64,000 nt of DNA from Shewanella litorisediminis (GTDB lineage: Bacteria; Pseudomonadota; Gammaproteobacteria; Enterobacterales; Shewanellaceae): the NCBI RefSeq assembly GCF_016834455.1, contig NZ_CP069213.1, positions 868,501-932,500 of the forward strand, written 5' to 3'. The position numbers and the translations under genes are program-made. Each line of letters starts with the position of its first letter. Position 1 is the stretch's first letter. Positions 2,004 to 10,521 of this stretch are shown piece by piece. The notes beneath the pieces were generated by a model. It made no database searches. It worked only from the letters and a program-made list of their open reading frames with translations, and had not been told where the DNA came from.

Positions 2004-3434
2004 ATGAATACACTTGTCTGGTTCCGGCAGGACCTGCGCACCATCGATAACCAGGCACTGACGCTGGCGTGTGAGGATGCCAAGGCTCGTGGCGGAAAGC
2101 TGTATGCGCTCTTTATTGCCAGCCCGTGTCAGTGGCAATTACACGATATGGGAGTGCGCCAGCAGCGTTTTTTGCTGGCGAACCTGAATGTGCTGGGGAA
2201 GGAGCTGGGGCTTCTCGGCATTCAACTCTCCCTGTTGAAGGTAGACTTTTTTAATCAAACTGCCGCCGCCCTCAAGGCCTTTTGTAAAGAAAACAGCATC
2301 TCCAGTATCTTTGCCGGGGCTCAAATCGAGATTGATGAGCGCAGGCGCGATCAGGCGCTTCTGGATAAAGGCTTCCCGCTGCATCTGACAGATGAGCACT
2401 GCATCTTGCCCCCGGGCAGCGTGGTCACTCAAGCGCAGCGTGACCAGGGCGGCGCCATGTACCGGGTATTTACGCCCTTTGCCCGCCGCTGGCGTGAAAT
2501 CGCCGCCTCCCGTCCGCTGTGGCCCATTCCTGCGCCCACGTCTGTGGCCGAGCCATTGGAGTTTGCCCCCTTCGACTTTTGGGGGGCCACAACACAGGAT
2601 GACCCGGCTCTTGATAAATGGCCTGCCGGCCAGGATGCGGCCCTGGAAAAGCTGTCTCGCTTTCGGGAGCTTGCCATGGCCCGCTACGGTGAGAAACGCG
2701 ACTTTCCCGCCATCGATGGTACCAGCAGTTTATCCCCTTTTCTGGCGCTCGGCGTGATATCACCCCGTCAATGTCTGGCGGCGATTTTGGAAGACTTTCC
2801 CGACGTTTTTGTGAATGAATCTTCACCGGCACGCACTTGGCTTAACGAGTTGGTGTGGCGCGAATTCTACCGTCACCTGCTGGTGGCCTTCCCAAGCCTC
2901 AGTATGGCAAGGAATTTTAATCCTCTGGGTGACGGCATTCGCTGGCGCAATGATGAAAAAGAGTTCGAGGCATGGAAGAGCGGCCGCACCGGCTATCCGC
3001 TGGTGGATGCAGCCATGCGGCAACTGCACCAAACCGGCTGGATGCACAATCGTCTGAGAATGGTAGTTGCCAGCTTTCTGACCAAGCATCTGCTTATCGA
3101 TTGGCGCTGGGGTGAGCGTTATTTTCGCGATCAGCTAATCGATGGCTGCCTTGCGGCCAACAACGGTGGCTGGCAGTGGGCCGCGGGTACAGGCTGTGAT
3201 GCCCAGCCTTACTTTCGGATCTTTAACCCTATGAGTCAGTCGGAAAAATTTGATCCCGACGCTCGCTTTATCCGTAAATACTTACCAGAAATCGCGCAGT
3301 GGCCAACCAAGTCGCTGCATCAGGCAAGTGGGCCGGGGCTGTTTGATAACAGTGGCTATCCGTCTCCGATAGTTGAGCACAGCAGTGCCCGTTCAAGGGC
3401 GCTGGATGTGATGGCCGTGATGAAGAAGGGTTAG
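2004..3434 (+). CDS. phrB: Deoxyribodipyrimidine photolyase
   Basis: 476 residues, normal for a class I CPD photolyase. It uses FAD and an antenna cofactor to split UV-induced cyclobutane pyrimidine dimers with blue light. The N-terminal antenna domain begins LVWFRQDLR. The C-terminal FAD domain shows WREFYRHLL, GRTGYPLVDAAMR, GWMHNR, NNGGWQWAAGTGCD and the FNP...Q..KFDP segment. Tryptophans of the electron-transfer chain are in the expected motifs. It lies inside the operon: the upstream stop is 27 bases away and the next start is 3 bases downstream. A CPD photolyase is more likely than a cryptochrome given the E. coli-like neighbourhood. Confidence 0.95.
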   Translation: MNTLVWFRQDLRTIDNQALTLACEDAKARGGKLYALFIASPCQWQLHDMGVRQQRFLLANLNVLGKELGLLGIQLSLLKVDFFNQTAAALKAFCKENSISSIFAGAQIEIDERRRDQALLDKGFPLHLTDEHCILPPGSVVTQAQRDQGGAMYRVFTPFARRWREIAASRPLWPIPAPTSVAEPLEFAPFDFWGATTQDDPALDKWPAGQDAALEKLSRFRELAMARYGEKRDFPAIDGTSSLSPFLALGVISPRQCLAAILEDFPDVFVNESSPARTWLNELVWREFYRHLLVAFPSLSMARNFNPLGDGIRWRNDEKEFEAWKSGRTGYPLVDAAMRQLHQTGWMHNRLRMVVASFLTKHLLIDWRWGERYFRDQLIDGCLAANNGGWQWAAGTGCDAQPYFRIFNPMSQSEKFDPDARFIRKYLPEIAQWPTKSLHQASGPGLFDNSGYPSPIVEHSSARSRALDVMAVMKKG

Positions 3435-3437
3435 GGA

Positions 3438-3959
3438 ATGAATGCAGGTGTGCGCAGTTCGGTTGATAAGGGTTCGTTGGACGAGAGTCTGTTTGATATG
3501 CGTAAGCATGAGCAAAGCAGTCTCGCTGAACCGTTGTCGGAGCCCGTTGAAAAGCTGATGGCCCTTTATCAAAAGCTGGGTGCCCATAACCTTGCGCTGC
3601 TCGACGAGGTTTACAGCGACGCAGTGGTGTTTTGCGACCCCATGCATCGTATCGAAGGGCTTTCGCTCCTCAAGGGGTATTTTGCCAATCTGTATCAAAA
3701 CCTCAGCAGCATAGACTTTGTTTTTCATCACGTGATGGATGATGGCGCGCAGGCCACACTGGTGTGGACCATGACCTTTGCCCACCCCAAACTGGCAGGT
3801 GGTAAACCCATCAGCGTGGAGGGGGTAAGCCAGATTGGTTACAGCGACAAGGTAGACTTCCACCGCGACTATTTTGATATGGGCGCTATGCTCTATGAAC
3901 ATATTCCCGGCCTTGGCGCTTTGGTGCGGCTGGTTAAAAACAGGGCGGGCAGGTCATGA
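3438..3959 (+). CDS. NTF2/SnoaL-like protein of the photolyase operon
   Basis: 173 residues with a cone-shaped NTF2-like (SnoaL) fold expected from the pattern LMALYQKLGAHNLALLDEVY, a central FCDPMHRIEG and a closing FHRDYFDMG. The first 35 or so residues are a poorly conserved lead. The ATG sits 3 bases after the photolyase stop and the stop overlaps the next gene's start by 4 bases, so translation is probably coupled. Family members bind small hydrophobic molecules or act as isomerases; the substrate here is unknown. No signal peptide. Related proteins accompany the SDR/amine oxidase/DUF1365/Cfa set in other proteobacteria, so a role in acyl-chain chemistry is a reasonable inference. Confidence 0.8.
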   Translation: MNAGVRSSVDKGSLDESLFDMRKHEQSSLAEPLSEPVEKLMALYQKLGAHNLALLDEVYSDAVVFCDPMHRIEGLSLLKGYFANLYQNLSSIDFVFHHVMDDGAQATLVWTMTFAHPKLAGGKPISVEGVSQIGYSDKVDFHRDYFDMGAMLYEHIPGLGALVRLVKNRAGRS

Positions 3960-4717
3960 ACATGCTGAGCGGTCGTGTACTGATCACGGGGGCCAGCTCA
4001 GGCATAGGGAAGGCGCTGGCGCTGGAATACCTTAAATCAGGATGGCAGGTGGTTGCCTGTGGCCGTGATAAGGCGCGCCTGGATGCGATTCTTGAGGCCC
4101 ACCCGCGATTTGCCTGTCAACTTTCTACGCTGACCTTTAACGTGTCTGACAGGCTTGCCTGCCTTGAGGCCGCTTCGTCTCTGGATGGCGAACTTGACCT
4201 CATTATCCTGAATGCAGGCAGTTGCGAGTACATAGATAACCCCAAGGTCTTCGACGGCAAACTCTTCGCCAGAGTGATAGAAACCAATCTGATTTCAGTG
4301 GGGTTCTGCCTGGAGGCCTTCTTGCCTGCATTGGCTGCCAAGGGCAGGCTGGCACTGATGGGCTCAAGTGCAGCGCTCTTGCCGCTGCCCCGGGCCGAAG
4401 CGTACGGCGCCTCCAAGGCGGCGCTGGCGTATCTGGCAAGCACGTTACGATTGCATCTGGCACCCGATGATATTGGCGTGTCCCTGATTGAGCCAGGCTT
4501 CGTGCGTACGCCTCTGACCGACAAAAACGATTTCCCCATGCCGGGGAGGATTGAAGTGGAAGATGCGGCGCGGCGCATTGTTCATGGGCTTTCCCGCGGT
4601 AAAGACCGGATCCAGTTCCCGCGCAGGTTGTTGTGGCCTATGCGGCTGCTTGCCTTGCTGCCGGGTGCTGTGTGGGGCCTTATTGCCAAAAGCAACATCA
4701 GGCGCCAGTCCGCCTGA
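3956..4717 (+). CDS. Short-chain dehydrogenase/reductase
   Basis: 253 residues, a classical SDR. The nucleotide-binding TGASSGIG motif is near residues 10-18, then LNAG at about 85, the catalytic serine in MGSSAAL and the YGASKAA Tyr/Lys pair at about 150. The coenzyme is NAD(P)H; the substrate is not predictable from sequence. The last 25 residues are hydrophobic (LLWPMRLLALLPGAVWGLI), suggesting association with the membrane, which fits a lipid substrate. It overlaps the previous gene by 4 bases and is followed by a 69-base gap, the largest in the block, where a secondary promoter could lie. Confidence 0.9.
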   Translation: MNMLSGRVLITGASSGIGKALALEYLKSGWQVVACGRDKARLDAILEAHPRFACQLSTLTFNVSDRLACLEAASSLDGELDLIILNAGSCEYIDNPKVFDGKLFARVIETNLISVGFCLEAFLPALAAKGRLALMGSSAALLPLPRAEAYGASKAALAYLASTLRLHLAPDDIGVSLIEPGFVRTPLTDKNDFPMPGRIEVEDAARRIVHGLSRGKDRIQFPRRLLWPMRLLALLPGAVWGLIAKSNIRRQSA

Positions 4718-4786: not shown

Positions 4787-6049
4787 ATGAAAAGAATTGC
4801 CGTTATCGGCTCGGGAATTTCCGGCCTCACCACAGCCCATTTGCTCTCCGGTCAGCATGAGGTGAGTCTGTTTGAGGCCAATGATTACCTCGGTGGCCAC
4901 ACGGCTACCGTGGATGTCACTGTCGATGGAAAAGACTATGCGATAGACACAGGCTTTATCGTCTTCAACGACAGAACGTATCCCAACTTTCAGAAGCTGT
5001 TGTCACGGCTGTCGGTGACAAGCATTCCCACCGAAATGAGTTTTTCGGTTCACAACCTCGACAGTGGCCTTGAGTATAACGGCCATACGCTGGCTACCTT
5101 GTTTGCTCAAAAGCGTAACTTGTTCAGCCCAAAATTTTGGGGATTTCTGAAGGAAATCATCAGGTTTAATAAGCTTGGTAAAGCCTGTATTGAGTCCGGG
5201 CAATACCCCTGTAATACCCTAGGGGAATTGTTGGCGAAAGAGCAATTTTCAGACTTTTTTGCACGGCACTACATATTGCCCATGGGCGCAGCCATCTGGT
5301 CATCGAGCCTGGATGATATGGCGGCCTTCGAGCTTAAGTTTTTCCTGCGCTTTTTCCACAACCACGGCCTGCTGAATGTCAGCGACCGCCCTCAGTGGTA
5401 TGTGCTCAAGGGCGGCTCACGCAGCTACATTCCGGCGCTGGTGGCACCTTTTGCCGAGCGTATTCATCTCTCTACTCCAGTGACCGCGGTAAAGCGCCAT
5501 GCTGAAGGGGTGTCCATTCAGACAAACGGCCAGGATTGGCATGAATTTGATGAGCTGGTGCTTGCCTGTCACAGCGATCAGGCGCTGAAGCTGCTCACCG
5601 ATGCCTCAGATGCCGAGCGGGCGGTGCTTGGCGCCTTGCCCTACAGACGCAACGACGTGGTACTGCACACAGACACAGGGCTGTTACCAAAACGCAAAGC
5701 CGCCTGGGCCAGCTGGAACTATCGCCTCGATGAAGATAATCAGCGCCCCGCAGCCGTGACCTATCATATGAACACCCTGCAAAGGCTGCCGGCGGGCTCT
5801 CCTGACTTTATGGTGACCCTCAATCAGACCGAGGCCATCGCCAAAGACAAAATTCTGCGCCAGTTCAGTTATGCACATCCGGTATTTTCCTCGGCCGCCA
5901 TGGCCGCACAGGCACGCAGGATGGATATCTGCGGACAGCAGCATACCCATTTTGCGGGTGCTTACTGGTACAACGGCTTCCATGAAGATGGCGTAAGAAG
6001 CGCCCTGGATGTTTGCCAGCGCTTTGGTGTCAGCCTGGAGAGCGCATGA
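4787..6049 (+). CDS. FAD-dependent amine-oxidase-family protein
   Basis: 420 residues. It opens with a dinucleotide-binding motif, VIGSGISGLTTAHLL, then LFEANDYLGGHTATV, the NAD(P)-binding-8 / amine-oxidase pattern. Members next to DUF1365 and Cfa-like genes are often annotated as cyclopropane-fatty-acid-associated flavoproteins. They are candidates for desaturating or oxidising an acyl chain rather than an amine. It ends with the family's GAYWYNGFHEDG segment, where the flavin is bound. The stop overlaps the next ATG (ATGA), so coupling with DUF1365 is expected. No signal peptide; probably cytoplasmic and peripheral to the membrane. Confidence 0.88.
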   Translation: MKRIAVIGSGISGLTTAHLLSGQHEVSLFEANDYLGGHTATVDVTVDGKDYAIDTGFIVFNDRTYPNFQKLLSRLSVTSIPTEMSFSVHNLDSGLEYNGHTLATLFAQKRNLFSPKFWGFLKEIIRFNKLGKACIESGQYPCNTLGELLAKEQFSDFFARHYILPMGAAIWSSSLDDMAAFELKFFLRFFHNHGLLNVSDRPQWYVLKGGSRSYIPALVAPFAERIHLSTPVTAVKRHAEGVSIQTNGQDWHEFDELVLACHSDQALKLLTDASDAERAVLGALPYRRNDVVLHTDTGLLPKRKAAWASWNYRLDEDNQRPAAVTYHMNTLQRLPAGSPDFMVTLNQTEAIAKDKILRQFSYAHPVFSSAAMAAQARRMDICGQQHTHFAGAYWYNGFHEDGVRSALDVCQRFGVSLESA

Positions 6050-6840
6050 ACAGCGGCATCTTTTTTGGCCATGTGAGTCATCAGCGGCTGGGGGCGGTGC
6101 GCCACAGCTTCAGTTACCCCATGGCGATGCTGGTGATGGATCTGGACGAGCTGCCAAGACTTGCCAGATTGAGTGCTGTGTTTGGCCTGTCATGGTTTCG
6201 GCCGCTGCGATTTCGCGCAGGCGATTATCTGATTTCAAAGGCACCGGCTGCTTTGCAACGGGGCAAAGAAGAAAGCGCCGAACAGGCCGTGCAGTCATTA
6301 AAACAGCGGGCGCTCATAAAAGCCCGGGAGCTTGGCGCTGAAGGTGAGCTTAATCGGGTGGTGTTTGCCGGGCAGGTGCGCCACTTTGGTTTTTATTTCA
6401 GCCCGGTGAACTTCTTCTTTTTGTGCAGTGGCGATGAGCAGCGTTACCTGCTCGCGGAAGTGAGTAACACCCCCTGGAACGAGCGCCATTGTTATCTGGT
6501 TGATGTAACCGAGGCACACGACAAGGGCCAGGCGGTAAACGACAAGGTGTTTCATGTCTCGCCCTTTATGAGCCTGGATATGCGTTACCGCTGGCAGGTC
6601 GACGCCAACAATGAACGCTTTCGGCTGCAAATTGATAACGAGCGAGAAGGGGGCGAGCGGCTCTTTCGTGCCGGGTTACAGCTCCGTGGGCAGGCCTTTG
6701 ATAAGGCAGGTCTAAAACTTTTTATTAAACGTTTTCCTATACTTACAGCTTATATCCTGTATGGCATTTATCGGCAGGCCCTGAGCCTGTTTCGAAAAGG
6801 TGTGACTTTTGTGGCCCACCCCGGGCCGGTGGAGAAATAA
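6046..6840 (+). CDS. DUF1365 protein
   Basis: 264 residues. Start chosen at the ATG at 6046, which overlaps the preceding stop; a longer frame from 6013 would only extend into the upstream gene. It begins NSGIFFGHVSHQRL, the typical DUF1365 opening, and contains FGFYFSPVNFFF and VSNTPWNERHCYLV, the family core. The C-terminus is hydrophobic and basic. Its function is unproven; the family is almost always found beside a Cfa-like methylase and an FAD protein. In Rhodobacter sphaeroides the equivalent gene belongs to the RpoE/ChrR singlet-oxygen regulon, as far as I recall. It is separated from the Cfa-like gene by 2 bases. Confidence 0.88.
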   Translation: MNSGIFFGHVSHQRLGAVRHSFSYPMAMLVMDLDELPRLARLSAVFGLSWFRPLRFRAGDYLISKAPAALQRGKEESAEQAVQSLKQRALIKARELGAEGELNRVVFAGQVRHFGFYFSPVNFFFLCSGDEQRYLLAEVSNTPWNERHCYLVDVTEAHDKGQAVNDKVFHVSPFMSLDMRYRWQVDANNERFRLQIDNEREGGERLFRAGLQLRGQAFDKAGLKLFIKRFPILTAYILYGIYRQALSLFRKGVTFVAHPGPVEK

Positions 6841-6842
6841 TC

Positions 6843-8072
6843 ATGGACAATACCGCAGTTGCCAATAAGAGCACTTCATCGACGCTGGAATCGTTGGCCC
6901 AACGCATTTTGCTGACCGCCCTGAAAGGCTTGTCTTACGGTGGCCTCCGACTGATTTGTGATGGCGAAACCCTGGTATTTGGCAGTCATCAGGGACCACA
7001 GGCGGTTATCCACGTGAAGTCGCCCCGATTTTTTCGCGAAGTTTTGCTGTCAGGCTCTGTGGGGGCGGGGGAGTCCTTCATTGATGGCCACTGGGACAGC
7101 CCGGATTTGACCGAGGTGGTGCGTCTCTTTGCCGCCAATCTGCCGCTGCTCGACCGTCTCGAGAAACGCTTTGCCTTCCTGTCGGGTGTCACCAATCGCA
7201 TCAGCCATCTGCTCAGTCGCAACAGCATTGAAGGTTCAAAACGCAACATTCTGGCCCATTATGATTTGGGCAACGCCCTGTATGAATGTTTTCTCGACAA
7301 ATCCATGCTCTATTCGTCGGCCATCTATCCGGATGTGAACGCAACCCTGGAGGCGGCTCAGCAGCATAAGCTCGCCACGATTTGTGAGCGCTTGAAGCTT
7401 GCTCCGGGTATGGAACTCCTGGAGATCGGTACCGGCTGGGGAGCCCTTGCCATCTACGCAGCAACCCATTATGGGGCCAAGGTCACCACGACCACCATCT
7501 CCGATGCCCAGCATGACTACGCCCTCGCACGCATTCGCGAGGCTGGGCTTGAGGGGCAAATAACCCTGCTTAAAAAGGACTATCGCCTGCTTGAGGGTAA
7601 ATACGACCGTCTGGTATCCATTGAGATGATTGAAGCCGTGGGCCATGAATACCTGCCGGGCTTCTTTACCAAGCTCGAGAGCCTGCTCAAAGACGATGGT
7701 TTGATGCTGCTGCAGGCCATCACCATTGCCGACCAAAGGTATGAGAGCTACCGCAAAGGCTGTGACTTTATTCAAAAATACATCTTCCCCGGCGGCTGTT
7801 TACCTTCTGTAAGCCGCATGGCAAACCTGATTGCCCAGCGCACCGACATGGTGATGCTGAGCCTGGATGATATTGGCGAAGATTACGCCCGTACCCTGAA
7901 GCACTGGCACGAGAATGTTGACCAAGAGCTGCCGCAGATTCGTGCTCTGGGTTACGACGAGCGATTTATCCGCTTGTGGAAGTTTTACCTGAGCTACTGC
8001 GAGGGTGGCTTTTGGGAGCGTACCACCAGTGCTGTGCATCTGGTGGCTGCAAGACCGGGCTGGCGCCCCTAG
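6843..8072 (+). CDS. Cyclopropane-fatty-acyl-phospholipid synthase-like methylase
   Basis: 409 residues, a SAM-dependent methyltransferase that acts on double bonds of phospholipid acyl chains. The SAM motif is LLEIGTGWGALA at about residues 192-203. The bicarbonate-binding glutamate of the Cfa family corresponds to E264 in MIEAVG. HYDLGNALYE at about 139-148 is also a family motif. Where E. coli Cfa has Cys139 in YSCAYW, this protein has YSSAIY (157-162), so it belongs to the subgroup linked to DUF1365 rather than the housekeeping Cfa type. It may make cyclopropane, methyl-branched or furan fatty acids; sequence does not decide this. It could be called cfa, but the subgroup difference argues against the symbol. 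Confidence 0.88.
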   Translation: MDNTAVANKSTSSTLESLAQRILLTALKGLSYGGLRLICDGETLVFGSHQGPQAVIHVKSPRFFREVLLSGSVGAGESFIDGHWDSPDLTEVVRLFAANLPLLDRLEKRFAFLSGVTNRISHLLSRNSIEGSKRNILAHYDLGNALYECFLDKSMLYSSAIYPDVNATLEAAQQHKLATICERLKLAPGMELLEIGTGWGALAIYAATHYGAKVTTTTISDAQHDYALARIREAGLEGQITLLKKDYRLLEGKYDRLVSIEMIEAVGHEYLPGFFTKLESLLKDDGLMLLQAITIADQRYESYRKGCDFIQKYIFPGGCLPSVSRMANLIAQRTDMVMLSLDDIGEDYARTLKHWHENVDQELPQIRALGYDERFIRLWKFYLSYCEGGFWERTTSAVHLVAARPGWRP

Positions 8073-8095: not shown

Positions 8096-8605
8096 ATGTC
8101 ACAGCGATGGTTTTTGCTCGTCAGCGCAGCCATTTACACCGCAGCCTGGTGGCTTGCGGTTCTTGAACGCGGTCAGGGACTTATTTGGCTGTGTCTGTTG
8201 CTGATGGTGCACTTTGTGTTAAGTCCCACAAGACTTAAGGACTTTCAGCTGCTGCCCCTAGCGCTGATTGGCATGACCATGGACACCCTGCTGATGTACG
8301 CAGGTGTGTATGAGTTCAGCGCCATGCCAGTGTGGCTGATGCTGCTGTGGCTGCATTTTTTACTGGCCATGGGCCATTGTCTCGCCTGGCTTGGCAAGCA
8401 GCCCATGTGGGTGCAGGTGTTTACCGGTGTGTTCGGCGGTGCAGGCAGCTATATTGCCGGGGCTGAGCTTGGCGCCGTGGTGATGCCCCTTGGCAATCTG
8501 CTTACCTTCCTGCTCATTGCGCCCCTTTGGGGGGCGATTATTCCCGGATTCTTTTGGCTGCAGCAAAGGCTGCCAGGCAACGGAGACTACCTATCATGGC
8601 GATAA
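8096..8605 (+). CDS. DUF2878 inner-membrane protein
   Basis: 169 residues from the ATG at 8096, 23 bases after the methylase stop. An upstream in-frame start at 7976 would run inside the methylase and is rejected. Strongly hydrophobic with about five membrane segments, including FLLVSAAIYTAAWWLAVL at the start and LTFLLIAPLWGAIIPGFFWL at the end. This matches DUF2878, a family of unknown role regularly found in this cluster. Its last 10 bases overlap the next gene. A membrane site supports a link between the cluster and lipid or membrane chemistry. Confidence 0.82.
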   Translation: MSQRWFLLVSAAIYTAAWWLAVLERGQGLIWLCLLLMVHFVLSPTRLKDFQLLPLALIGMTMDTLLMYAGVYEFSAMPVWLMLLWLHFLLAMGHCLAWLGKQPMWVQVFTGVFGGAGSYIAGAELGAVVMPLGNLLTFLLIAPLWGAIIPGFFWLQQRLPGNGDYLSWR

Positions 8606-9147
8606 CATCAGCGAGCAAAGCATTTAAAAGGTTATCAGGTGCGCTACTGCTGGTCGCGCTCAGTTCCTTTTCGGGCGCCTCCGTCAGTGCGGATAACCCC
8701 CTTGATGGCATGAGCCGTGTTGGCAAAGGCAAAATGACCTGGCTTTGGCTTGAGCTTTACCATGCCAGCCTCTATTCAGTCGATGGTCGCTATCAGGCTG
8801 GCCGTTATCCGCTGGCACTTGAAATCCAATACTCGCGGGAGATAGAGGCGAAAGATTTGCTGGAAGCCACAGGTAGCGAGTGGCAAAAGCAGGGCATGAG
8901 CGAGGCTCAGGTGAAGGCGTTTTTGGCTAAACTCGCGCCCCTGTGGGTGGATGTACGGCCCGGTGACACCCTGCTGCTTGTGGCCAGTGACGCGAGCCAT
9001 GGCGAATTTTTCCATAACGGCCAATCCCTTGGCAGCGTGAATGATAACGGACTCATGCAGGCCTTTTTGGGTATTTGGCTTCGTGACGACACCAGTGAGC
9101 CCACGTTAAGGGCACAGCTTTTGGGAGAAACCTCATGCGATTGCTAG
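8596..9147 (+). CDS. Exported chalcone-isomerase-like protein
   Basis: 183 residues from the ATG at 8596. An N-terminal signal peptide (residues 1 to about 33: a basic start, a hydrophobic LLLVALSSFSGA core and cleavage near VSA/DN) sends it to the periplasm. The remaining domain resembles bacterial chalcone-isomerase-fold proteins: GKGKMTWLWLELYHASLYS, then the ...YPLALEIQYSREI segment. Some proteins of this fold bind fatty acids, which would suit this cluster, but no ligand is known here. It overlaps both neighbours (10 and 13 bases), so it is translationally coupled to DUF2878 and DUF3833. Confidence 0.82.
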   Translation: MAITSASKAFKRLSGALLLVALSSFSGASVSADNPLDGMSRVGKGKMTWLWLELYHASLYSVDGRYQAGRYPLALEIQYSREIEAKDLLEATGSEWQKQGMSEAQVKAFLAKLAPLWVDVRPGDTLLLVASDASHGEFFHNGQSLGSVNDNGLMQAFLGIWLRDDTSEPTLRAQLLGETSCDC

Positions 9148-9656
9148 CCTTGCTGTTATCGGCCACCTTGCTTTTGGGCTGCGAGAGCGCCGATATCGAC
9201 GATTATCGCACCATGAACAATGAGCTTAAACTGGACACCTTTTTTGTGGGTGAGCTGGATGCCCATGGCATGGTGCAGGATATGAGTGGCAAGGTGACGC
9301 GACGCTTTGTGGTTACCATGCTGGGGCGACTTGAGGGTAATCGCATTATCCTCGAAGAAGACTTTGTGTTTGATGATGGTGAAAAGCAGCGACGGGTGTG
9401 GCAGCTCGAACCCCTGGGCGGGGGCCGCTGGCTTGGACGTGCCGATGATATTCTTGGAACTGCCGAAGGGCAGTTAGAAGGCTTTGCCCTGCGCTGGCGT
9501 TACGATATGCGCCTCACTGTGGATGGCAGTGAGGTCGATGTTGCCTTCGATGACTGGCTCTATCTGATTGATGAAAACACGCTGCTTAACAAAAGCGATA
9601 TCAATAAGTTTGGCATCACTGTCGGCGAGGTTACCCTGGTTATCCGCAAGCGCTGA
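9135..9656 (+). CDS. DUF3833 lipoprotein
   Basis: 173 residues with a lipoprotein signal: LLSATLLLGC, lipidated cysteine at residue 16, followed by Glu-Ser, so outer-membrane targeting is likely. The mature part matches DUF3833 (LDTFFVGELDAHGMVQD, then FDDGEKQRRVW), predicted to form a beta-rich, lipocalin-like domain. Last gene of the operon. With the chalcone-isomerase-like and DUF2878 genes it forms a constant trio at the 3' end of this cluster, possibly handling a modified lipid in the envelope. A weak hairpin follows at about 9678-9690 without a clear U-run. Confidence 0.85.
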   Translation: MRLLALLLSATLLLGCESADIDDYRTMNNELKLDTFFVGELDAHGMVQDMSGKVTRRFVVTMLGRLEGNRIILEEDFVFDDGEKQRRVWQLEPLGGGRWLGRADDILGTAEGQLEGFALRWRYDMRLTVDGSEVDVAFDDWLYLIDENTLLNKSDINKFGITVGEVTLVIRKR

Positions 9657-9744: not shown

Positions 9745-10521
9745 TTAGCGAAGGATTACATCCCCTTGAATATTGGCGGTATTAACGCTGCCTGAGCCAT
9801 CTGAGTGGATAATCAGGCCACCGGCGTTTTTGACGTTGATATTGCCCGAGCCGTCGGTGATTTCGACCTTGCCTTTGGTTTGATCAACGAAGATATTGCC
9901 AGAACCATCCTGGATTTTGGCATTCCCCATGACTCCCGTTACCCTGATATCTCCGGAACCATCATTGATATCGGCGCTGCCTGAAATGTCGGAGACAGTG
10001 ATATTGCCAGAGCCATCGTTGATATCGACACCACCAGCGCTGTTGGTGAGGGTAAGATCCCCTGAGCCGTCATTGATGGATACCTGATTGCCTCCCTCGA
10101 TAACGAGATTGCCAGAGCCATCGTTCACCCGGATATCACTTGTCAGGCCACGGATGTCGATGTCGCCGGAGCCATCTTTGATGTCCAGCATCATGGATTG
10201 GGGCACAGTCACAGTGACATTGATGTAGGGTGATTTGCCTGAAAATGAGTAGGACTCGGGAAATTTAGCCACCAGATAAGCGGTTGAACCCCGCACTTCA
10301 AGGGTAAATTCGGGCTTTTCACCTTTGGGATGGTAGATGTCGGCTACAGCCAGTACTTCGCTGGTGTCGCTACCGGTGAGCTTAAAACTGCCAGCGCCCG
10401 CTTCTACATTAAGGCTTGTCAGCCCATTGGCCGATACCGACAGCTGTTGGCGTTCATCGGCCAGGGCGGCGGCTGAAGCGAATACCAGGGATAAAGCAGT
10501 GAGAGACGCGATGATTTTCAT
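9745..10521 (-). CDS. Exported DUF4097 beta-helix-like repeat protein
   Basis: 258 residues with a signal peptide (cut near ALA/DE at residue 21). Residues 23-115 are a beta-rich lead. From residue 116 the protein is built of eight repeats, each with DGSG, at residues 116, 134, 151, 169, 187, 205, 223 and 241, a near-exact 18-residue period. Each repeat reads roughly DGSGxIxVxxxxGxxxIx, as expected of a right-handed beta-solenoid of the DUF4097/DUF2807 type. A periplasmic or cell-surface location is likely; function unknown. It is convergent with the lipoprotein gene and divergent from the FKBP gene, sharing a 248-base region rich in GTGTCCG half-sites. Confidence 0.85.
   Translation of the reverse strand: MKIIASLTALSLVFASAAALADERQQLSVSANGLTSLNVEAGAGSFKLTGSDTSEVLAVADIYHPKGEKPEFTLEVRGSTAYLVAKFPESYSFSGKSPYINVTVTVPQSMMLDIKDGSGDIDIRGLTSDIRVNDGSGNLVIEGGNQVSINDGSGDLTLTNSAGGVDINDGSGNITVSDISGSADINDGSGDIRVTGVMGNAKIQDGSGNIFVDQTKGKVEITDGSGNINVKNAGGLIIHSDGSGSVNTANIQGDVILR

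Follow-up and report, generated by a model that had tools for sequence, protein, structure and literature searches.

In the stretch of the Shewanella litorisediminis genome analysed here (contig NZ_CP069213.1, positions 868,501 to 932,500; 64,000 nucleotides, hereafter the window), three intact, co-directional open reading frames close a ten-gene run. They encode a DUF2878 inner-membrane protein with six predicted helices (8096-8605, + strand; PF11086, E value 6.2e-36), a protein of the chalcone isomerase (CHI) fold and the Chalcone_3 family, predicted to be periplasmic from its signal-peptide-like N-terminus (8596-9147, + strand; PF16036, 1.2e-11, 45.5 bits), and a DUF3833 lipoprotein with a predicted ten-stranded calycin-like barrel (9135-9656, + strand; PF12915, 2.9e-67). 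The first two genes overlap by 10 bases (8596-8605) and the last two by 13 (9135-9147), and all three starts are preceded by a Shine-Dalgarno-like GGAG or GGGAGA, as read by eye. A preliminary description of this DNA had the coordinates, overlaps, and domain names right and was also correct in attaching the trio to a lipid-modifying operon, which is of the furan-fatty-acid type. Rather than a fixed trio, the three genes form a module whose membrane partner can be exchanged and which is tied to furan-fatty-acid genes.

By Pfam, the order of the run is RudS-phrB-SnoaL-SDR-ufaD-ufaO-ufaM-DUF2878-CHI-DUF3833, and its gene content matches that of a furan-fatty-acid/photo-oxidative-stress operon. 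Papers are cited below by their PubMed Central identifiers. In Rhodobacter sphaeroides, UfaD (RSP1091), UfaO (RSP1090), and the S-adenosylmethionine-dependent methyltransferase UfaM make 9M5-FuFA (PMC7380195). Their counterparts in the window are a UfaD-like FAD-dependent oxidoreductase (4787-6049, + strand), a UfaO-like DUF1365 protein (6013-6840, + strand), and a UfaM-like CMAS methyltransferase (6843-8072, + strand), all assigned by Pfam. The succession of an FAD oxidoreductase and a DUF1365 protein is taken as the UfaD-UfaO order; that UfaO is the DUF1365 protein is our reading from position together with PMC5507510 and PMC10012899, and not from the RSP sequences. UfaD stands directly before DUF1365 in 101 of 101 mapped loci that hold DUF1365, including this one. 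A tree was built from 69 CMAS sequences chosen from the matches (58 from operons and 11 others, with no UfaM of proven activity among them), in which the 58 operon sequences and one divergently placed neighbour form a single clade with E. coli Cfa outside (support 0.966). The home genome holds no second full CMAS match, the next one reaching 34 bits over 111 positions.

Co-occurrence and the choice of membrane partner

The phylogenetic profile covered 200 Pseudomonadota genomes and was evaluated with Fisher tests without kinship correction. DUF3833 was found in 36 genomes, DUF2878 in 27 over the cut-off (29 including two weak matches), Chalcone_3 in 57, and DUF1365/UfaO in 52. Of the 36 DUF3833 genomes, 34 also carry UfaO (7e-23), as do 26 of the 27 DUF2878 genomes (4e-17), kinship being ignored in both values; on this sequence evidence, DUF3833 and DUF2878 are near-exclusive to UfaO-bearing genomes. 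The co-occurrence holds out of gene-to-gene view, because UfaO is still present in 19 of the 21 genomes that were followed up from 28 named loci with no ufa gene in view of DUF3833, and DUF2878 in 18 of the 21. Of the three without DUF2878, two also lack UfaO, and the third, Stutzerimonas stutzeri KOS6, has a transporter of the MFS type. Sub-cut-off matches to DUF2878 (G189, G034) and to Chalcone_3 (one each in G124 and G067) as well as repeat fragments (G112, G013) were excluded from the counts. Among 51 UfaO-bearing genomes, from which G123 with its DUF1365 fragment was left out, DUF2878 and DUF3833 occur together in 20, DUF2878 only in 6, DUF3833 only in 14, and neither in 11. The idea of the trio as one inseparable unit was rejected on these 6 and 14 genomes, in which each of the two is found without the other.

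The place of DUF2878 is taken elsewhere by an MFS transporter, and all six module MFS proteins that were scanned belong to Pfam MFS_2. This was seen in 80 named loci, which are the best DUF3833 matches among those listed and not a random sample, and many of which end at contig ends. CHI, MFS, and ufa genes stand together in 36 of them, CHI, DUF2878, and ufa genes in 11, and DUF2878 together with MFS in 0; the rest comprise DUF3833 alone (16), CHI-DUF3833 only (6), and other partial sets (11). The usual order in Burkholderiales is UfaD-UfaO-UfaM-CHI-MFS_2-DUF3833-SDR-SnoaL. Within the 51 UfaO genomes, DUF2878 (26 genomes) and the module MFS (9 genomes, sought near ufa or DUF3833 genes) never occur together (p = 7e-4). 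The same picture emerges within one genus: among 56 Stutzerimonas genomes, DUF2878 is found in 1, DUF3833 over the cut-off in 23 (25 with two weak fragments), and UfaO in the same 23. When the 23 DUF3833 regions were read, 22 turned out to be CHI-MFS-DUF3833 without DUF2878, and the only genome with DUF2878 (G271, whose coordinates coincide with those of G023 in the 200-genome set, so that it is counted in both) carries CHI-DUF3833 beside it and no MFS in the module. As judged from gene content, DUF2878 and an MFS_2 transporter are thus used alternatively as the membrane partner.

Gene coupling within the module is recurrent. An ATG or GTG lies within -40 to +30 of the upstream stop at 28 of 29 CHI-DUF3833 and 9 of 12 DUF2878-CHI junctions, and likewise at 38/40 CHI-MFS and 51/51 MFS-DUF3833 junctions. 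By our estimate, a start codon is expected there by chance about half the time, and the telling part of these counts is the 4-base overlap in most MFS junctions.

The CHI-fold gene was traced separately, the divergent sort being defined as every Chalcone_3 match under 100 bits anywhere in a genome. It is present in 23 of the 51 UfaO genomes and has a membrane partner, DUF2878 or the module MFS, in 22 of them (p = 1.7e-4), compared with DUF3833 in 19 (p = 0.04). The middle gene thus depends above all on its membrane partner, as would be expected of a go-between or a protein that handles substrate. A count defined by proximity to DUF3833, DUF2878, or CMAS (membrane partner in 17/17, DUF3833 in 16/17) favours the result by its definition and was not used. 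Divergent or fragmentary CHI matches without UfaO occur in six genomes outside the 51-genome test (G011, G036, G064, G108, G110, and G112). These figures bear on the explanation that the three genes are independent passengers of a light or singlet-oxygen regulon, which would be co-regulated in the way RudS and the photolyase are and would do separate jobs. The operon does combine functions in tRNA, DNA, and lipid metabolism, many genomes have the trio split up, and published single deletions had no fatty-acid phenotype (PMC7380195). Set against this are the constancy with which the divergent CHI is accompanied by a membrane partner, the mutual exclusivity of DUF2878 and MFS, and the tight coupling of the genes, and we consider the passenger explanation improbable.

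Among known systems, one of the closest to the run is the R. sphaeroides operon RSP_1091-1087 with ufaM, which belongs to the core regulon of sigma-E/ChrR and in which UfaD and UfaO are likewise joined in a single run by genes for a membrane protein, a lipoprotein-type protein, and an SDR. It differs in that here UfaM lies within the run, DUF2878 replaces MFS_2, CHI is present, and RudS and phrB lead. By gene order in the Rhodobacteraceae-like loci L050, L053, and L055 (UfaD-UfaO-(CMAS-CHI in L055)-MFS-DUF3833-SDR), RSP1087, RSP1088, and RSP1089 would correspond to the SDR, DUF3833, and MFS genes, respectively. RSP_1089 has been listed as a GPH-family symporter (PMC7074977), and RSP_1088 matches the Pseudomonas syringae lipoprotein PSPTO_2515 at 32% (PMC5507510). 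Conservation of RSP_1089-1087 is described in PMC3818230 as limited to Rhodobacteraceae; in the loci studied here, DUF3833 and the module MFS are widespread in Gamma- and Betaproteobacteria too. The light-inducible PplR/PmlR cluster of Pseudomonas has the same core genes (phrB, SDR, FAD oxidoreductase, ufaM, and hypothetical genes), and the named Pseudomonas loci differ in that the ufa run is either not in view of CHI-DUF3833 (or of a lone DUF3833) or convergent with it. In S. stutzeri KOS6, CHI-MFS-DUF3833 is immediately preceded by a GTP cyclohydrolase I gene (PF01227; L184:7310-7864, + strand); the Pseudomonas genes reported as light-inducible include folE (PMC9758184).

Predicted properties of the proteins

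The three compartments assigned in the preliminary description are reasonable predictions, resting on the six helices of DUF2878, a hydrophobic N-terminus ending in ASVSA in the CHI-fold protein, and the lipobox LLGC of DUF3833. DUF2878 is accordingly predicted to span the inner membrane with six transmembrane helices, which appear as six long helices in its model. It shows no sequence relation to the MFS_2 partner that stands in its slot elsewhere. The nearest solved relatives of that partner are MFSD2A, the sodium-dependent lysophosphatidylcholine symporter, and its like, at remote similarity. A profile of 15 module MFS proteins scores 104 bits against MFSD2A and 79.5 against melibiose permease (MelB), and a profile of five scores 76 and 49, respectively, whereas a control profile of five E. 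coli GPH transporters reverses the order (melibiose permease 291, MFSD2A 129). Since MFSD2A outscores melibiose permease and the control is reversed, the module MFS is not a transporter of the sugar-permease kind and tends towards lipid carriers, albeit at remote similarity; a single module MFS sequence used as the query found no solved relative.

In the literature searched, no account of the function of DUF3833, DUF2878, or the trio was found beyond that of VC1123, the DUF2878 gene of Vibrio cholerae. When it was deleted, ompU rose about 316-fold and ompT fell about 8-fold, toxR/toxS stayed the same, and the strain grew better in bile salts (PMC12971978). The deletion thus affects the envelope, which does not prove lipid transport.

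The CHI-fold protein of the window is a divergent Chalcone_3 member. PF16036 at an E value of up to 1 matches 26 of 26 module CHI proteins, the fold being assigned by sequence profile, and a hydrophobic N-terminus is found in 46 of 54 relatives by our own heuristic. Chalcone_3 comprises two sorts, a canonical one (over 100 bits in 30 genomes, 6 of which have UfaO) and the divergent one to which the window's protein belongs. UfaO is thus absent from 24 of the 30 genomes with canonical copies. A canonical Chalcone_3 gene is also present in the home genome as its second member of the family, far from the operon (G000:C1:2736887-2737381, 184 bits). In two genomes (G142 and G158; loci L031:6440-7246, - strand, and L034:6187-6915, - strand), the CHI place between DUF2878 and DUF3833 holds an unrelated protein, with open frames of 269 residues in L031 and 243 in L034. 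Both proteins start with a hydrophobic stretch and lack a Pfam match above the cut-off; at an E value of 0.1, one has no Pfam match and the other one weak match below the cut-off.

DUF3833 is predicted to be a lipid-anchored calycin-like barrel. A simple lipobox pattern, again our own heuristic, fits 73 of the 80 named relatives, with Asp at position +2 in none of the 73. The model (pLDDT 92.3) has ten strands that form a barrel and would be calycin/lipocalin-like in the sense of an antiparallel 8- or 10-stranded barrel. Foldseek gave a best E value of 1.5e-4, and VIA-align found BFA1 (Z 16.1, root mean square deviation (rmsd) 3.1, 138 aligned), DUF3598 (15.2), the spirocyclases OssO (14.8) and OlmO (14.2), nitrobindins (about 14.5), CpeS (13.7), the FABP-like Ycf58 (12.9), and FABP3 (10.1). 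The barrel shape alone is not specific because a designed transmembrane barrel scores 15.8. By sequence, no solved relatives of value were found for the trio proteins. Long frames around DUF3833 in L003, L008, and L025 were checked as possible fusions that could prove a partnership and were rejected, since in all three a normal lipoprotein start lies immediately ahead of the DUF3833 domain.

A possible lipid-handling role

Calycin and CHI folds often bind hydrophobic ligands, and a lipid ligand is on that account a fair guess rather than a result. Quite possibly, though we hold this tentatively, the trio is an accessory lipid relay or retrieval module that handles a furan-fatty-acid-related lipid, with DUF2878 doing the job of the MFS transporter. 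The trio would then serve as the accessory envelope section of a furan-fatty-acid operon that is induced by light or singlet oxygen. The membrane partner, DUF2878 or MFS, would move the lipid (a free acid, a lysolipid, or a photo-oxidation product), and the CHI-fold protein and the DUF3833 lipoprotein would bind it and pass it on between the inner and the outer membrane. The equivalence of DUF2878 to the MFSD2A-like transporter that replaces it elsewhere is suggested by the swap. As the MFS partner is akin to lysolipid symporters, the direction of transport would lean to uptake, by which damaged lipid may be brought back to the SDR and SnoaL-type proteins, presumed to be cytoplasmic.

LolA/LolB, Mla, and LplT are lipid shuttles of the Gram-negative envelope. 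The module resembles them in its set of an inner-membrane protein, a periplasmic carrier, and an outer-membrane lipoprotein; unlike them, its genes include no ATPase or MCE protein and belong to other families by Pfam name. The more specific proposal is that DUF2878 is a minimal six-helix flippase for lysolipids or fatty acids, functionally equivalent to a bacterial MFSD2A-like transporter, and that together with a periplasmic CHI-fold carrier and a calycin lipoprotein of the outer membrane it retrieves furan lipids that have been photo-oxidised in that membrane, so that they can be repaired. We regard this as unlikely; if true, it would amount to a dedicated envelope lipid-repair route for light damage.

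Several observations weigh against a lipid relay. Single deletions of RSP1087, RSP1088, and RSP1089 caused no detectable fatty-acid change in R. sphaeroides (PMC7380195), and RSP_1091 and RSP_1090 alone restored the singlet-oxygen resistance of a whole-operon deletion (PMC3818230); because of these results, the module does not appear to be needed for furan fatty acid synthesis, nor in that resistance assay. The genes for DUF2878 and DUF3833 are in some cases widely separated, the two show no significant association among the 51 UfaO genomes (p = 0.14), and DUF3833 is missing in 4 of the 23 divergent-CHI genomes. The exclusivity of DUF2878 and MFS partly follows taxonomy, and in most Stutzerimonas genomes some 12 kb separate UfaO from DUF3833. 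Their shared distribution there may therefore reflect one island gained or lost, which would not explain the swap. The DUF2878 model has no clear match among solved folds (Foldseek best E value 1.4; VIA best Z 5.2 at an rmsd of 7.3), and the idea that DUF2878 is half of an MFS protein was rejected, as hhalign shows no profile relation. Of the relay put forward in the preliminary description, what stands is the use of two of three folds that often serve hydrophobic ligands, a membrane slot fillable by an MFS_2 protein near lysolipid symporters, and a CHI-fold protein that keeps its membrane partner (22/23) and mostly DUF3833 (19/23); the Rhodobacter deletions tell against it. Independent occurrence of the genes, which the same description had named as refuting, was found in part, in that DUF2878 and DUF3833 each occur without the other.

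Calycin and CHI folds also occur in enzymes, a further point of this kind. The proteins might then be enzymes of furan-fatty-acid chemistry rather than carriers: CHI would isomerise or cyclise an alpha,beta-unsaturated ketone arising from furan oxidation, DUF3833 would be a calycin-fold enzyme, and DUF2878 or MFS would move the product. CHI enzymes act on alpha,beta-unsaturated ketones, the DUF3833 model resembles the calycin spirocyclases OssO and OlmO, and across the 26 module CHI proteins Y55, Y79, and W161 never vary and R81 hardly does. The CHI profile, on the other hand, matches no solved CHI by sequence, so that no alignment of catalytic residues was obtained and no catalytic site was mapped, and a transporter slot suits carriers equally well; we find the enzyme explanation doubtful.

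Furan fatty acids protect membranes from singlet oxygen, and the literature searched gave no account of the movement of furan lipids or their oxidation products through the envelope. Under the lipid-relay reading, the exchange of DUF2878 for an MFSD2A-like transporter would provide a first testable function for DUF2878 and would place the divergent CHI-fold sort in the same pathway as DUF3833. It would also offer a frame for the unexplained outer-membrane phenotype of VC1123 and suggest where bacterial CHI-fold proteins may work.

Regulation and surroundings of the run

The first gene of the run encodes RudS (TudS plus DUF1722; 1023-1976, + strand), a homologue of a tRNA 4-thiouridine desulfidase (PMC11417400), and is followed by the deoxyribodipyrimidine photolyase gene phrB (2004-3434, + strand), a gene for a SnoaL_2-fold protein (3438-3959, + strand), and a gene for a short-chain dehydrogenase/reductase (SDR; 3956-4717, + strand) of the same kind as RSP_1087, all four by Pfam. 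About 50 bases before RudS lies an ECF11/ChrR-type sigma-E promoter-like site, TGATCT-N16-CGTA (949-974, + strand). Sites of the type TGATC-N16-CGTA number 3 in the window against 1.04 expected, which is not above chance, and the site is therefore notable by its position only. Such a site precedes the first gene in 15 of 101 operons, including this one, compared with 224 of 20,200 random stretches. ChrR is found over the cut-off in the home genome (G000:C1:2397036), with two such promoter-like sites upstream on its own locus; ChrR in the genome together with a promoter-like site before the operon marks the run as a candidate member of an ECF11 sigma-E/ChrR regulon. No LitR-like B12-binding regulator was seen in the home genome, whose sole B12-binding_2 match lies in a frame of 1261 residues. 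Between 600 and 10000, 3 sigma-70 promoters were found against 5.4 expected, and 10 terminators against 11.7 expected.

Comparable runs respond to light or related signals in other species. They are light-inducible in Pseudomonas, with phrB and ufaM of P. mendocina induced about 25- to 33-fold (PMC9758184), induced by blue light at VC1122 in V. cholerae (PMC5241685), and responsive to riboflavin in Aeromonas salmonicida (PMC10012899). A sigma factor was bound before phrB in P. syringae, where the same study saw no PSPTO_1043 binding before PSPTO_2515 (PMC5507510). Instead of moving lipid, the module could also be a sensor arm that reports the lipid state of the envelope to the ChrR or light-regulator pathway. 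ChrR turnover under singlet oxygen requires RSP_1090 (UfaO) (PMC3818230, PMC6852236), and the ompU/ompT shift with unchanged toxR/toxS in the VC1123 deletion would suit such a role; RSP_1091 and RSP_1090, however, are sufficient when the rest of the operon is missing (PMC3818230), a sensor would not usually have an MFS transporter in this slot, and the VC1123 strain shows other large changes as well, including relB and a transposase gene (PMC12971978). We consider a sensor arm very unlikely.

Downstream of the run and convergent with DUF3833, a gene at 9745-10521 (- strand) encodes a protein that looks secreted, is rich in DGSG(D/N)I repeats, and matches no Pfam family at 0.001. In six loci (L033, L041, L061, L081, L088, and L105), a second, distant CMAS-type methyltransferase gene lies in or near the ufa genes, in some cases beside DUF2878, and could, as a guess from PMC7380195, encode a FufM-like enzyme for dimethyl furan fatty acids.

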